A stretch of DNA of 13,414 nt, taken from assembly GCA_028275075.1 (NCBI GenBank), contig JAQCNK010000151.1, positions 1 through 13,414 on the forward strand, read 5' to 3'. The position numbers and the translations under genes are program-made. The stretch comes from Haloarcula sp. GTDB lineage: Archaea > Halobacteriota > Halobacteria > Halobacteriales > Haloarculaceae. The notes beneath the pieces are model-generated. The model saw only the letters and a program-made list of their open reading frames with translations, searched no databases and was not told the origin of the DNA. The stretch's first letter is position 1. Every line of letters begins with the position of its first letter. Of this stretch, positions 219 to 4,705 are shown one piece after another.

Positions 219-295
219 TATACGGGTCGACAGAACGATTGATAGAATTCGGCTCGCCAGACCCCGGCGAATAGCTATCAGTGTCGACCCGTATA
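219..295 (+). repeat. Palindromic MITE-like element, copy 1
   Basis: This is a 77-bp unit bounded by 14-bp perfect inverted repeats: TATACGGGTCGACA at 219-232 and its complement at 282-295. Inside these, a second pair of arms (TGATAG-ATTCG and CGAATAG-CTATCA) also pairs, so most of the unit can fold into one long hairpin around a GC-rich loop containing CCAGACCCCGG. It matches copy 2 closely in the same orientation, but lacks six bases near its right end and differs by one base in the loop region. It ends 10 bp before the stop of the CAP-like gene on the minus strand. No transposase is present. The outer TATA of each end would fit a TA target duplication, which is inference. Confidence 0.85.
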
Positions 296-305
296 TCCAG
301 CAGTG

Positions 306-1142
306 TCAGCAGACGACGTATGTGACGAAAACAGTATCATTGGGCGCGACGTGGACATCGACGCCCACGGTGTCACCGCTGCGGAAGGCATTGCCCCGTT
401 CTACGTAACTGTCGACTACCACCGTCGCCAGCGCAGTCTCGGTCTCGAAGTTACGTACTGACTCACCAGTGCGCTCGGGTACCACTGGGTAGCTGATGAG
501 GACCGGTCGGTCACACGGGAGATCAAACTGGGCGAGCACCTCCGTGTCGGGCTTCTCGCCGTTCCCGGCAGCGGCGGCCACGGTGGCCTTGTTGTAGTAC
601 GCAGCGGCCACGTCCACGGTTGCGTTCCGGGCAAGCGCGCCGGCGCCCTCGGCCGTCCGCCGCTCGTTCAGTTCCGCGACATAGGCATCTTCGACCTCGG
701 CAAGCGAGAGCCCACCGACAGTGTCAGCGCTTCCCGGGGCCTCAGGTACTGGCGGTGGGCCCGATGGCCCGCCCAGCGTCGGCAGCGATATAACGCCAAC
801 TACGGACAGGAGCAGAACACCAAGCAGGACGGCGACAACAGCGTAGCCGGCGACGTACGTTGGTTCGAGAACGTCCAGCCAGCTGGTGCCGATCTCGTCC
901 AGCGGGTCCGCTTCGGGCGGGCCCTCGCGCAGTTCGAGGTCCGCTCCGCCACAGCGCTTACACGGGGGAGAGTTGCGCTGGTGGGAGCGACCACAGTCCT
1001 GACAGATCCAGACGGTTCCACCAGGGACGACCTCGTGGTTGACCTGCCGAACCGCCTTCTCGAACGTTCCGTGCCCACAGTTGTCACAGGGCGGGTCGTT
1101 TTCCTCGTGTGGTTTCTCACACCACTCACACCGCCATTCCAT
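306..1142 (-). CDS. Membrane-anchored protein with two zinc ribbons and a CAP/SCP-like domain
   Basis: The 278-residue protein has three parts. Residues 5-22 and 47-64 are two similar zinc ribbons, each with paired CxxC motifs (Cys5, 8, 19, 22 and Cys47, 50, 61, 64) and a shared H..N.PPC..CG core, which suggests an internal duplication. Residues about 97-120 form one transmembrane helix, followed by a Pro/Gly-rich linker. Residues about 145-278 resemble a CAP/SCP domain (AYVAELNERRTAEGAGAL, then an AYYNKA helix). The His usually found in that helix of CAP proteins appears to be replaced by Tyr. Cys210 and the terminal Cys278 could form a disulfide outside the cell. The ribbons would then face the cytoplasm. 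The start at ATG 1142 places CEWC next to the N-terminus, and a weak TATA-like TTTGTAGC lies at about 1163-1170. It follows hisF on the same strand after an 83-bp gap. The CAP assignment is moderate and the function is unknown. Confidence 0.8.
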   Translation of the reverse strand: MEWRCEWCEKPHEENDPPCDNCGHGTFEKAVRQVNHEVVPGGTVWICQDCGRSHQRNSPPCKRCGGADLELREGPPEADPLDEIGTSWLDVLEPTYVAGYAVVAVLLGVLLLSVVGVISLPTLGGPSGPPPVPEAPGSADTVGGLSLAEVEDAYVAELNERRTAEGAGALARNATVDVAAAYYNKATVAAAAGNGEKPDTEVLAQFDLPCDRPVLISYPVVPERTGESVRNFETETALATVVVDSYVERGNAFRSGDTVGVDVHVAPNDTVFVTYVVC

Positions 1143-1225
1143 TACTGCATATAGGTGACCGAGCTACAAAGGAGTCGCGACGGTGGCAGCCCACGCCGGG
1201 ATCGCCCGCCGCTAAATCGACTGTG

Positions 1226-2041
1226 TCACAGCCGAACCGGTATCCCCTGCTCGTCGAGATGCCGTTTGGTCTCCTCGATAGAGTATTCACCGAAATGGAA
1301 GATAGAGGCTGCCAGTCCGGCGTCAGCGCCGGCATCGACGAACACCTCCGCCATGTCTTCCGGGCTGCCACAGCCTGAGGAGGCGATCACCGGCGTCGAA
1401 ACGGCGTCACAGACCGTTTTCATCAACGGGAGATCATAGCCGTCTTTGGTGCCGTCGGCGTCGATGGAGTTGACGAAAATCTCGCCCGCGCCACGCCGCT
1501 CGGCCTCCTTTGCCCACCCGACAGCGTCTAGGCCCGTGCCCTCGCGGCCGCCCTTGACTGTACACTCGAACCAGCAGGACTCACCGTCGATCTCGACGTA
1601 CTGTTCGCCCTGACCGTCGAAACGCCGCCGCGCGTCCAGAGAGATAACGATACACTGGCTCCCAAAGGCAGCCGCACCCTCTTCGATGAGATCCGGGTTT
1701 GCGATAGCGCCGGAGTTGATCGAGACTTTGTCCGCGCCGGCCCGCAGTGTCTCTTTGATATCTTCGCGGGTGCGAATGCCCCCGCCGACCGTGAGCGGGA
1801 TGAACACCTCATCGGCCACAGCCGAGACGGTTTCGAGCATCGTCTCTCGACCCTCCGCGGAGGCTGTGATATCCAAGAAGACGAACTCGTCGGCCCCGGA
1901 CTCGTTGTAGGCCTTCGCCATCTCCACCGGGTCGCCGGTGTACTCCAGATCCTCAAAGTTCACACCGGTGTACACCGCGGCGTCCCCGTTCTCGTCGACG
2001 TCGACATCGATACAGGGAATGATTCGCTTAGTCAGGGTCAT
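1226..2041 (-). CDS. hisF: Imidazole glycerol phosphate synthase, cyclase subunit HisF
   Basis: HisF closes the imidazole ring in histidine synthesis. It uses ammonia from the HisH glutaminase to turn PRFAR into imidazole glycerol phosphate and AICAR, in the cytoplasm. The 271-residue protein is a complete beta/alpha barrel. The first catalytic Asp is D12 in RIIPCIDVD, the second is D136 in VISLDARRR, the phosphate-binding loops include TVGGGIRT and ASSGCGS, and [12 protein letters not shown] is the conserved late-barrel motif. It is somewhat longer than bacterial HisF (about 253), with extra residues after each catalytic Asp ([12 protein letters not shown], and near residues 141-158), as is usual in haloarchaea. 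The AICAR by-product feeds purine synthesis, and purL lies nearby, but hisH and other his genes are not in the window. I see no convincing TATA box at the leaderless distance. Confidence 0.97.
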
Positions 2042-2185
2042 TGCGTTCGAGTTTACTGCATGGCCGTTTCATCGTTTCGACTGCTACGGAATATTGTCGT
2101 CTCGCGCGGTTTCACCCCACAGTCGCCGTGCTACCGCTCGGGCGCCCGCTACAACGCGTCGACTCCCGCGGACGCAAATCCGACA

Positions 2186-2193
2186 GTTACAGG
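2186..2193 (+). promoter_or_regulatory. TATA-like box of the small membrane protein gene
   Basis: GTTACAGG is centred about 27 bases before the ATG at 2217, the usual distance for a leaderless haloarchaeal transcript. The match to a TATA box is modest. Confidence 0.4.
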
Positions 2194-2216
2194 TGGTCGC
2201 TCTCACATTTTCGGGT

Positions 2217-2408
2217 ATGGCAGACGACCACCACGACGATGACCGCCCCGACTACGACCCCGAGCACGTCGAACTGCCCGCGAAGGCGCCGCCGCTGCGC
2301 TCGACTGCGCCCCAAGACGATTTCACAATGGGACAGGTCGGAGAGGGTGCAAGCGTTGCGCTTTTCGGACTTCTCATGACTTTCGGCGTCGCGTTGGTAC
2401 TGGTCTGA
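2217..2408 (+). CDS. Small acidic one-helix membrane protein (haloarchaeal DUF7550-like)
   Basis: This is a 63-residue protein. Residues 1-38 are rich in Asp and His at the start (MADDHHDDDRPDYDPEH) and in Pro/Ala afterwards. Residues about 44-63 form one hydrophobic helix (ASVALFGLLMTFGVALVLV) that runs to the very C-terminus, so the acidic tail probably lies in the cytoplasm with a tail anchor in the membrane. The ATG at 2217 is preferred over upstream starts in the same frame because the segment before it lies over the hisF promoter and reads as Arg/Ser-rich non-protein. A TATA-like GTTACAGG at 2186-2193 stands 27 bases before this ATG. Similar short proteins are common in haloarchaea (DUF7550, named from memory). 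The function is not known. Confidence 0.8.
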   Translation: MADDHHDDDRPDYDPEHVELPAKAPPLRSTAPQDDFTMGQVGEGASVALFGLLMTFGVALVLV

Positions 2409-2459
2409 GAGTCTGTCTCGGCCACTGAGAGCGGGCGCAGCGGTTGCAGCCATAGCGCG

Positions 2460-2541
2460 TATACGGGTCGACAGAACGATTGATAGAATTCGTCCGCCAG
2501 ACCCCGGCGAATATCTATCAGTGCTTCTGTCGACCCGTATA
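2460..2541 (+). repeat. Palindromic MITE-like element, copy 2 (longest copy)
   Basis: This is an 82-bp unit with 17-bp perfect inverted repeats: TATACGGGTCGACAGAA at 2460-2476 and its complement at 2525-2541. The inner arms TGATAGA-ATTCG and CGAATATCTATCA pair as well, and CGCC/GGCG flank the loop AGACCCC, so nearly the whole unit is one hairpin. It lies between the convergent ends of the small membrane protein gene (stop 2408) and purL (stop codon at 2543-2545), one base from the purL stop. Orientation is the same as copy 1. It could end or protect the purL mRNA, or be a non-autonomous mobile element. No transposase gene is visible. Confidence 0.88.
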
Positions 2542-2542
2542 G

Positions 2543-4705
2543 TCAGGCCAACTCGTCGGAGATAGTTGACCGACGGTCGGCTATCTCGGGGGCGTCGTAC
2601 TGCAGACGGTCGTCGTCAACCGTGATTTCGAGGTGGTTCGAACCGTTGGCCTCGCCAAGTTCCATCACAGGTGCGACCCCGTCGAACGCCTCGCGAACGG
2701 CGGCGGGATCGGTCGTCTCGAAGACGACTCGGCCGGGCTGTTCGTTGAACAGGAACTCCGTTCCGGCCCCGTGGTCGCCGGTCTCCAGAGCGACGTTGGC
2801 TCCGGCGTCCTCGTGGACCATCTCGGCAAGGCAGACAGCGAGTCCACCGTGGCTCACGTCATGTGAGGCCAGCACATGGTCTTCGTCGGCCACCTCGGCG
2901 ATAGTACTGATGAGCGCGGTCGGATCCGCGGGGAGTTCCGGGAAGGCGTCGGTGCCGCCCAACAGCGTGGTGAACTCCGAACCGCCCAGTCGGGGCTCGG
3001 TCTCGCCCTCCAGTGACGTGTCGCCGACGACGACCAGGGTTCCCTCTCCGGAGAGCGACATCGGCGGTGCGTCGTACCCTTCTTTGACACCAACGAGCGC
3101 GAGTGTCGGCGTCGGTGGGATCGGTCCCGTGTTCGAATCGTTGTACAGCGAGACGTTCCCGCCGACGACCGGAACATCAAGTTCGCTACACATGTCGGCT
3201 AGCCCATCGACGACACCTTTGAAGCCGCCGTAGACGTCGGGCTTCTCGGGGTTCCCGCCGTTCAGGCAGTCGACCGCAGCGTGAGGCACGGCACCTTTCG
3301 CTGCGACGTTCGTGGCGTTTTCAAGCGCGACGGCCCGAGCGCCATCGTACGGCGCCGCGTCGGTCCAGTTGGGGTCCGCGCCGGCAGAGAAGGCCAGTCC
3401 GGTTCCCGACTCGCGAATCGCGAGGAGGGCAGCGTCGTCGCCGGGGAGAACGCTTGTTCGGACCTGTACCTCGTGGTCGTACTGGCGGTAGACCCAGCGT
3501 TTCGAAGCCGTGTTCGGGCTTGCGACAATGTGGTCGAACGCCTCGTCCAAGTCTATCGTCGGCAGGTCTCGCTCCCGTATCGGCGGGGCCTCGCTGGGCA
3601 GGTCGTTCATCGGCGCGCCTTCACCGAGGAAATGTGCGTCCACGTCGACGACTGTCTCGCCGTCGAACGTACAGACGTAGTTCGTCCCCGCTTCGGTGAG
3701 TTCGCCGATAACAGACGCACCGAGGTCGAACCGATCCGCGAGTTCGAGCACGCGGTTCACGTTCTCCGGTGTGACCTCGTACACCATCCGCTCTTGACTC
3801 TCGGCCAGGAGGTACTCCATAGCGTTCATGTTCGGCTCGCGTTCGTGGACCCGCTCCAGTTCGATACGCGCGCCCAGCCCGCCCTTGGCGACGAGTTCGG
3901 AGGACGCCCCCCCGAGGCCGGCGGCGCCGAGGTCACGCGCCGACTCGATCAACTCCTCGTCCAGCAACGCCTCGTTGCACTCGATGAGCAGCTTCTCAGC
4001 GTACGGATCGCCTACCTGGACCGCAGGGCGGTCCTCGGTCTCGGCGTCCTCAGCGAGGTCTTCGCTGGCGAAGGAGGCCCCGCCCAGCCCGTCACGCCCG
4101 GTCGAGTTGCCGACGAGGACGAGTTTGTTACCCGGCTCCTGGGCCTCGGCGGTAATCGTGCGTTCTGGCTCCAGCAGGCCAATGCAGGAGACGTTGACCA
4201 GCGGGTTTCCTTCGTAGTCTTCGTGGAAGGCGACCGAGCCCGTGACCGTCGGGACACCGATACAGTTACCGTAGTGGGAGATTCCCTCGACGACGCCCTC
4301 GAAGAGATACTGGGAGTGTTCACGGTCGAACTCGCCGAAGTAGAGGCAGTCAGCGAGTGCGATGGGGTAGGCCCCCATCGAGAGGGTGTCCCGCACGATG
4401 CCGCCGACACCGGTGGCCGCCCCGTCGAACGGATCGACGTAGGATGGGTGGTTGTGGGATTCGACGCCCATCGTGATATACATCTCGTCACCGTCGTAGG
4501 TCGGCAGGGCGACGACGGCGGCGTCGTCGCCGGGACCGATAACGACCTGATCGCCCTCACTGTCGAATGCGGTCAGGAGCGGACGCGAGGAGCGGTAGGC
4601 GCAGTGTTCGCTCCAGAGGTTCTCGAAGAGTGCGGCCTCTGCTCGCGTGGGCTCCCGACCGATTTCCTCGACCACGGTTTCGTGGTCGCTGTCGGACAGG
4701 CTCAT
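2543..4705 (-). CDS. purL: Phosphoribosylformylglycinamidine synthase subunit PurL
   Basis: PurL is the ATP-dependent synthase subunit of the fourth step of purine synthesis. It makes FGAM from FGAR with ammonia supplied by the separate glutaminase PurQ, together with PurS. Its 720 residues match the small archaeal/Bacillus-type PurL rather than the fused 1300-residue enzyme. Visible motifs are [14 protein letters not shown] (His34), [10 protein letters not shown] near residue 56, the catalytic GVESHNHPS (residues 80-88), [16 protein letters not shown], the second-half glycine-rich [10 protein letters not shown], and [14 protein letters not shown] near the end. Start ATG 4705 is supported by a TATA box at the leaderless distance. 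The TetR-type gene lies upstream on the same strand with a 72-bp gap. The stop is followed after one base by palindromic element copy 2. purQ and purS are not in the window. Confidence 0.97.

Follow-up and report, generated by a model that had tools for sequence, protein, structure and literature searches.

Two copies of a palindromic element in a Haloarcula contig

The window, by which we mean the whole 13,414-bp stretch analysed here, is one entire contig (JAQCNK010000151.1, here C343) of a Haloarcula sp. assembly (GCA_028275075.1; 2.06 Mb, 72% complete, 373 contigs). It carries two copies of a short, near-palindromic element that recurs throughout this genome and that is probably a miniature DNA transposon mobilised in trans. 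Including the target duplications, the full units span 219–295 (copy 1, 77 bp) and 2460–2541 (copy 2, 82 bp). As the first-pass annotation of the window had described, they lie in the same orientation and have perfect ends of 14 bp (copy 1) and 17 bp (copy 2). The left 33 bases of the two copies are identical, and the middle agrees at 28 of 29 positions. The features are as follows.

219–220: left target duplication TA of copy 1, the same as 294–295 (rule from 131 copies)
221–293, plus strand: copy 1 element, 73 bp, short right-end form, ends at 221–232 and 282–293
240–245 and 275–280: inner arms of copy 1, TGATAG and CTATCA
240–242, plus strand: built-in stop TGA of copy 1, codon 8 from the left TA
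278–280, minus strand: built-in stop TGA of copy 1, codon 6 from the right TA (short form)
294–295: right target duplication TA of copy 1
2460–2461: left target duplication TA of copy 2; site element-free in related genomes
2462–2539, plus strand: copy 2 element, 78 bp, long right-end form, ends at 2462–2476 and 2525–2539
2481–2486 and 2515–2520: inner arms of copy 2
2481–2483, plus strand: built-in stop TGA of copy 2, codon 8 from the left TA
2518–2520, minus strand: built-in stop TGA of copy 2, codon 8 from the right TA
2540–2541: right target duplication TA of copy 2, 1 bp past the purL stop codon
7608–7648, minus strand: third, cut-off copy, comprising the right end (14-bp end with one mismatch) and part of the middle

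Within the window, the 14-bp end occurs six times with up to three mismatches, compared with 1.2 expected, and none of 200 shuffles contained six. Each unit folds into one long hairpin, as annotated, and the fold stands out against 200 shuffles per strand. On the plus strand, the single hairpin reaches −35.7 kcal/mol in copy 1 (z −4.7) and −53.0 kcal/mol in copy 2 (z −7.7), energies that no shuffle matched; on the minus strand, the z-scores were −3.6 for copy 1 (matched by 1 of 200 shuffles) and −7.4 for copy 2 (0 of 200). An Rfam scan of the window gave no match.

Copy 1 lies 10 bp past the stop codon of a gene encoding a 278-amino-acid protein (306–1142, minus strand), presumably the one that had been labelled CAP-like; at E 0.001, this protein matched nothing in Pfam or NCBIfam. 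Copy 2 lies next to purL (2543–4705, minus strand) and 51 bp past a small DUF7550 gene (2217–2408), and hisF is located between the two copies.

A high-copy family with a 2-bp target duplication

Allowing up to two mismatches, the 14-bp end matched the assembly 155 times on the forward and 158 times on the reverse strand, compared with one match on each for a reversed but uncomplemented control; this density corresponds to roughly one copy per 13 kb. Counting as full those copies that have no more than one mismatch per 11-bp end core, at least 132 are present in 793 kb of the genome's own contigs; the remaining copies stop at contig edges or are cut off. The DNA examined comprised 100 contigs or contig pieces taken from four match lists, two of which covered about 100 places, so that a contig bearing a left end alone could be missing from it. 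Local duplication of a longer piece of DNA was rejected as the origin of the window copies: their flanks are unrelated, and copies occur genome-wide. Contigs L070, L071, L078, L112, L115, L148 and L152 end inside a copy, so that some breaks in the assembly seem to be caused by the repeat.

The element proper is bounded by TAC and GTA (TACGGGTCGACA...TGTCGACCCGTA) inside a 2-bp target duplication, and the suspicion that its TATA ends conceal a TA duplication was right. It measures 64–82 bp and has no genes or transposase. Together with the many copies, terminal inverted repeats of 12–15 bp inside the duplication and the fixed length of the duplication, this gives the element several of the features of a miniature inverted-repeat transposable element (MITE). 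Copies differ from the consensus by a mean of 2.3 substitutions, with 111 distinct sequences among the 132. Size forms arise from a 6-bp deletion adjoining the right end (47 copies) and from a shorter middle (about 12 copies).

Of the 131 copies for which both flanks were available, 121 had the same dinucleotide on the two sides and 10 had unmatched ones. The matched duplications were mostly TA (111), followed by GA (5), TC (3), CA (1) and AA (1). Independent decay of a TATA end would hardly yield matched pairs other than TA, and these pairs fix the length of the duplication at 2 bp. Of 66 family copies fetched from other genomes (a list of 69 rows, three family-B rows having been set aside), 55 had identical 2-bp flanks. 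Non-TA pairs (GA, TC, CA, AA or TT) made up 10 of the 121 matched duplications in the own genome and 11 of the 55 elsewhere. Beyond the duplication there is no strong conservation, the largest signals being G at −3 (0.48), C at +3 (0.40) and a rarity of A at −1 (0.08).

These ends bear on a possible kinship with REP/REPIN- or PATE-like palindromes, which would be moved by an HUH enzyme of the IS200/IS605 type and which the element resembles in being palindromic, short and extragenic. REPINs are not known to have terminal inverted repeats or target duplications. PATEs and IS605 types likewise lack the two features (PMC3119063), whereas the element has both. With the matched non-TA duplications also disfavouring such a route, we give this explanation almost no credence.

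Empty sites

Several copies are nested in repeats of a second palindromic family of this genome, here termed family B; where such a repeat has no insertion, the TA is present once. For window copy 2, we searched its joined flanks against 32 genomes of the genus and realigned 19 loci. The entire joined flanks aligned without the element in four of these (L430, L437, L438 and L442). In six others, the alignment spanned the junction with part of the left flank; in four, the two sides aligned as separate pieces, and in five the purL side alone aligned. A lone 11-base end match (at most one mismatch) was found within 400 bp in three loci (L437, L439 and L440), and it was never paired. Together with the copy number, the 2-bp direct duplications, non-TA pairs included, and the weak conservation outside them, these empty sites support the first-pass annotation's view of a non-autonomous mobile element.

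Nesting is also a trait of the small mobile repeats (SMRs) of Haloquadratum walsbyi, and the element could be one of this kind, moved by an obscure mechanism and aimed at other mobile elements. According to the parts of PMC3119063 that deal with them, SMR-A, SMR-B and the MITEs of that haloarchaeon share with the element a short length, prominent inverted ends and many copies, the SMR-B HqIRS41 is 80 bp long and SMRs have no parent transposon. The same description sets them apart, as SMRs are presented without a target duplication and SMR-A as preferring other mobile elements (PMC3119063). The element clearly duplicates 2 bp. Nor was the SMR-A preference seen, at least for family B as the target covered: 14 of the 132 copies are nested in family-B repeats, compared with the 11.9 that the fraction of non-coding TA sites in these repeats would predict (p 0.54). 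An origin of the SMR kind is therefore unlikely.

Patchy distribution and divergent end versions

Plain DNA similarity detected the family in 7 of 146 genomes of the taxonomic family. A covariance model built on 17 copies, among which six came from other genomes, matched 12 of the 146 at E 1e-4. As both matches in one of these (G032) proved to be family B, it was rejected as a carrier, leaving 11 confirmed carriers in 8 of 22 genera; no second genome of the window's own genus was confirmed among them. Carriers among the matches listed include the metagenome-assembled genomes QS_5_68_33, QS_4_62_28, SW_9_67_25, SW_7_65_23 and Tc-Br11_E2g27, as well as Halovenus sp. B1Sed10 and Halorientalis sp. 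LUM.68. Among the best 32 candidates per genome, four genomes had 28 to 32 matches, counts to which both strands of the palindrome may contribute.

Different versions of the element have been amplified in different genomes. The end reads TACTGGTCGACAG in G138, TACCGGTCGACGG in G102 and G108 and TACCGGTGGACGT in G060, and G081 carries the window's version. Among 392 genomes of the order, the exact 15-mer end occurred 190 times in the own genome and a single time in each of two more, one of these two matches (G078) being isolated. A degenerate 16-base end was counted 22 times in G138, 25 in G108, 20 in G102 and 11 in G060. Despite this divergence in sequence, the two ends remain paired: 97.2% of cells are paired end to end, compared with 23–49% when the partner is shifted by 1 to 3 columns, and 19 cells (6 pairs) are changed on both sides, compared with 5.3 (3.4) in shuffles.

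Plasmids, phages and IMG/VR were searched as well, and neither the element nor an insertion sequence (IS) with its ends was found there. The sole match outside archaea, L386 from Desulfobacterales, is a lone end and was taken as chance.

Insertions at gene ends and built-in stop codons

Gene calls were made with our own hexamer gene finder on the fetched DNA, that is, match-bearing contigs only, and gave 840 genes and 85% coding sequence. Although 70% of TA sites lie inside genes, no copy had called gene sequence on both sides of the insertion. Copies were placed between co-directional (44), divergent (31) or convergent genes (23), at contig edges (14) or at a gene end (20).

Such placement raises the question of whether the element is a structured RNA or transcription-terminator repeat that is kept at gene ends and does not move. 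Its strong hairpins would suit this role, as would the position of both window copies shortly past a stop codon, a slight over-representation in convergent regions (23 of 98 copies, compared with 16% of non-coding TA sites) and the scarcity of copies immediately 5′ of genes (2 of 106 copies within 10 bp, compared with 12.5%). However, distances to gene 3′ ends show no clear difference from those of random non-coding TA sites, and no enrichment was seen there (16 of 90 copies within 10 bp, compared with 16.6%; p 0.78). The 2-bp duplications and empty sites, the insertions into stop codons and other repeats, the lack of an Rfam match in the window and the patchy occurrence across genomes all argue against a terminator, which we consider very unlikely.

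At gene ends, the element meets the coding sequence in a single frame. In all 20 overlaps, the gene enters the element in frame 1 and ends at a built-in stop. Thirteen of these insertions hit precisely the TA of the native TAA or TAG, and seven lie in phase-0 sense codons, five of them no more than 11 codons from the old stop; no called gene had an insertion in phase 1 or 2. At a fourteenth stop-codon site (L149), a changed end base restores TAG. Within the last 11 codons of genes, no insertion was found at 304 open phase-1/2 sites, compared with 19 at 557 stop and phase-0 sites (p 0.0004). A looser test on open reading frames (ORFs) in the own genome returned four rows in phases 1 and 2, none of which is a called gene.

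The stop itself is a TGA, in many cases with a TAG after it, and lies in the one frame that has the duplicated TA at the start of a codon. A frame-1 stop occurs within 27 bp of 264 of 264 ends in the own genome and 130 of 130 ends of 65 copies elsewhere. By contrast, frames 2 and 3 are fully open at 252 and 258 of the 264 ends here, and at 100 and 82 of the 130 elsewhere. The 6-bp deletion form preserves the reading frame.

A probable miniature transposon with frame-set stops

We consider it quite probable that the element is a miniature, MITE-like DNA transposon of 64–82 bp that is gene-free, prefers TA targets, is mobilised in trans and has stops whose frame is set by the target. In this model, an enzyme provided in trans, most likely an IS630-type (DDE_3) transposase, would act on the TAC..GTA ends, presumably by a cut-and-paste route, and insert the element at a dinucleotide, with a strong preference for TA, which becomes duplicated. 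Where the target is the TA of a TAA or TAG codon, that codon would become TAT, and translation would then stop 5 to 8 codons into the element, such that the protein is retained with a short tail (YTGRQND, YTGRQKP or YTGRH). The spare stop would lower the cost of insertion and may thereby have shaped where copies survive.

Several observations weigh against this model. The search for an IS sharing the element's ends, suggested by the first-pass annotation, found none in 841 kb of the own contigs; eight convergent pairs of lone ends lie 300–4,000 bp apart there, each with at least one end of two mismatches, and none continues in an element-like way at both ends. A degenerate 16-base end pattern matched 16 of the 146 genomes, from which 30 loci were fetched. 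Eleven of these were examined, none of which is an IS with the element's ends: they are genes or chance matches in five family-free genomes, a remnant in G110 and otherwise short or cut-off elements. The 53 named loci contain 55 ends, of which 52 are part of a short element, two are lone and one was taken as chance. Repeated ISs are often absent from fragmentary assemblies such as this one. IS630 elements are moreover known for a strict TA target, a strictness not seen here, as about 1 in 10 matched duplications is non-TA. Further pair types between the two ends show no excess over shuffles (9 compared with 8.7).

The remaining points concern the stops. Per site, the excess at stop codons is weak (14 of 371, compared with 111 of 5,255 other non-coding TA sites; p 0.044). 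In other genomes, for which gene calls were not made, the looser ORF test assigned 7 insertions to stop codons and 6 to phase-0 sense codons, and the other 6 of 19 to phases 1 and 2. Because 5% of shuffled elements carry the stop at each of their two ends, the trait could have arisen by chance or as a by-product of a binding site, and later been kept as harmless. TGATA could also be conserved as a protein-binding site rather than as a stop.

We tentatively raise the further idea, possible but on balance doubtful, that both ends of the element and of family B are selected as translated sequence, with a spare stop in the frame set by the target and gene stops serving as safe harbours. If the stops are an adaptation, they would explain how a parasite load of about one copy per 13 kb is borne in DNA that, in the contigs examined, is about 85% coding. 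A mobile element of eight or more haloarchaeal genera would then have adapted to the genetic code at the place where it lands, and the co-evolution of target choice and element sequence to limit harm would become a testable question. Independently of the stops, the DNA transposons of haloarchaea are extended by a large family of very small members, as yet without a name, whose natural bursts in different assemblies lend themselves to comparison of individual copies.

Comparison with known small repeats

In the way it works, the element resembles the RUP and Correia kinds of MITE. RUP of Streptococcus pneumoniae (107 bp, 108 copies) is likewise gene-free, with terminal inverted repeats and TA-containing targets; unlike the element, it has a proposed parent IS, the helper IS630-Spn1, and the passages on it in PMC2229807, on whose description this likeness rests, mention no built-in stop. 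The Correia/NEMIS repeats of Neisseria, compared on the description in the same source, share TA termini, inverted ends and several size forms, and are reported there to form hairpin transcripts, but they are bacterial, measure 107–155 bp and have 24-bp ends (PMC2229807). QMITE1 and QMITE2 of Coxiella are MITEs that overlap or extend the 3′ ends of genes; in the account given by the relevant parts of PMC5896051, their overlaps vary in length and a single stop at both ends is not described. In the literature on haloarchaeal MITEs and related repeats, we found no published description of the family, which is not proof of absence; within that literature, the earlier statement that no named element has these ends stands.

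A sister family and candidate helpers

Family B is represented by 91 loci in the fetched DNA (for example, L086:3075–3156, L076:1306–1385 and L072:1632–1713) and also occurs in G032, G081 and G138. It comprises several subfamilies, with starts TACTGGTGGCTGTAA.., TACGGTCGGTTGTAACG.. and TACTGTTGGCTGTACG... Like the element, its members start with TAC, are palindromic and of similar size (mostly 80–82 bp), and contain a stop in the target frame (in frame at 18 bp in 52 of 60 ends). Unlike the element, family B has a different end sequence, a probable helper that is known and a 3-bp rather than 2-bp duplication, of the form TNA (TGA 14, TCA 9, TAA 2, TTA 1 and unmatched 4 among 30 clean copies).

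The probable helper is typified by locus L368 in genome G140, a 1,114-bp IS that encodes a 344-amino-acid transposase of the IS630 family (241 bits, cut-off 100); its ends TACTATCGGCTGAAAGTTCGTGAG are perfect, and its target duplication is TCA. The family-B end, TACTGGTGGCTGTAAGTTCGTAAAG, is close to that of this IS, and it is very likely, judging from these sequences, that family B moves with an IS630-type enzyme. Because this sister family has a related end and shares its ends with an IS630-family IS, the helper of the 2-bp-duplicating element is probably an IS630-type enzyme too. The IS630-type ISs with TAC ends in the taxonomic family fit family B.

Other candidates for an autonomous copy or helper were rejected. 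The end at L087:11124 is a remnant with no transposase recognised among its ORFs, and that on contig C40 of G102 (L308:11527) belongs to a decayed copy. At DDE_Tnp_1 (PF01609) loci in ten genomes, the sole exact end match (L285:1080) lies inside a 314-amino-acid ORF and has no partner. Among the 38 DDE_3 loci, those with recognisable ends form two groups, neither of which fits the element; for many loci, no clear ends were found. The first group (L303, L364, L366 and L368) has ends with TAC and a TNA duplication. In L303 (1406–2444), L364 and L366, the ends read TACGGTCGTGCG or nearly so; the L303 protein scores as IS630 family, and these loci could provide a helper for the B2 subfamily. The second group (L349, L352, L354, L356, L357, L362 and L363) has ends near TAGTAGCCGTTAGAAC, that is, TAGTAG-like, with an apparent TA duplication, several lying inside CTAG. 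The own genome contains a DDE_3 element as well (L299:1189–2256), with an apparent TCA duplication and a transposase frame split in two.

At L072:5776–5857, we observed a hybrid in which one end of the element is fused to a family-B interior, with AACGATT shared. This suggests that the element and family B have homologous ends or recombine.

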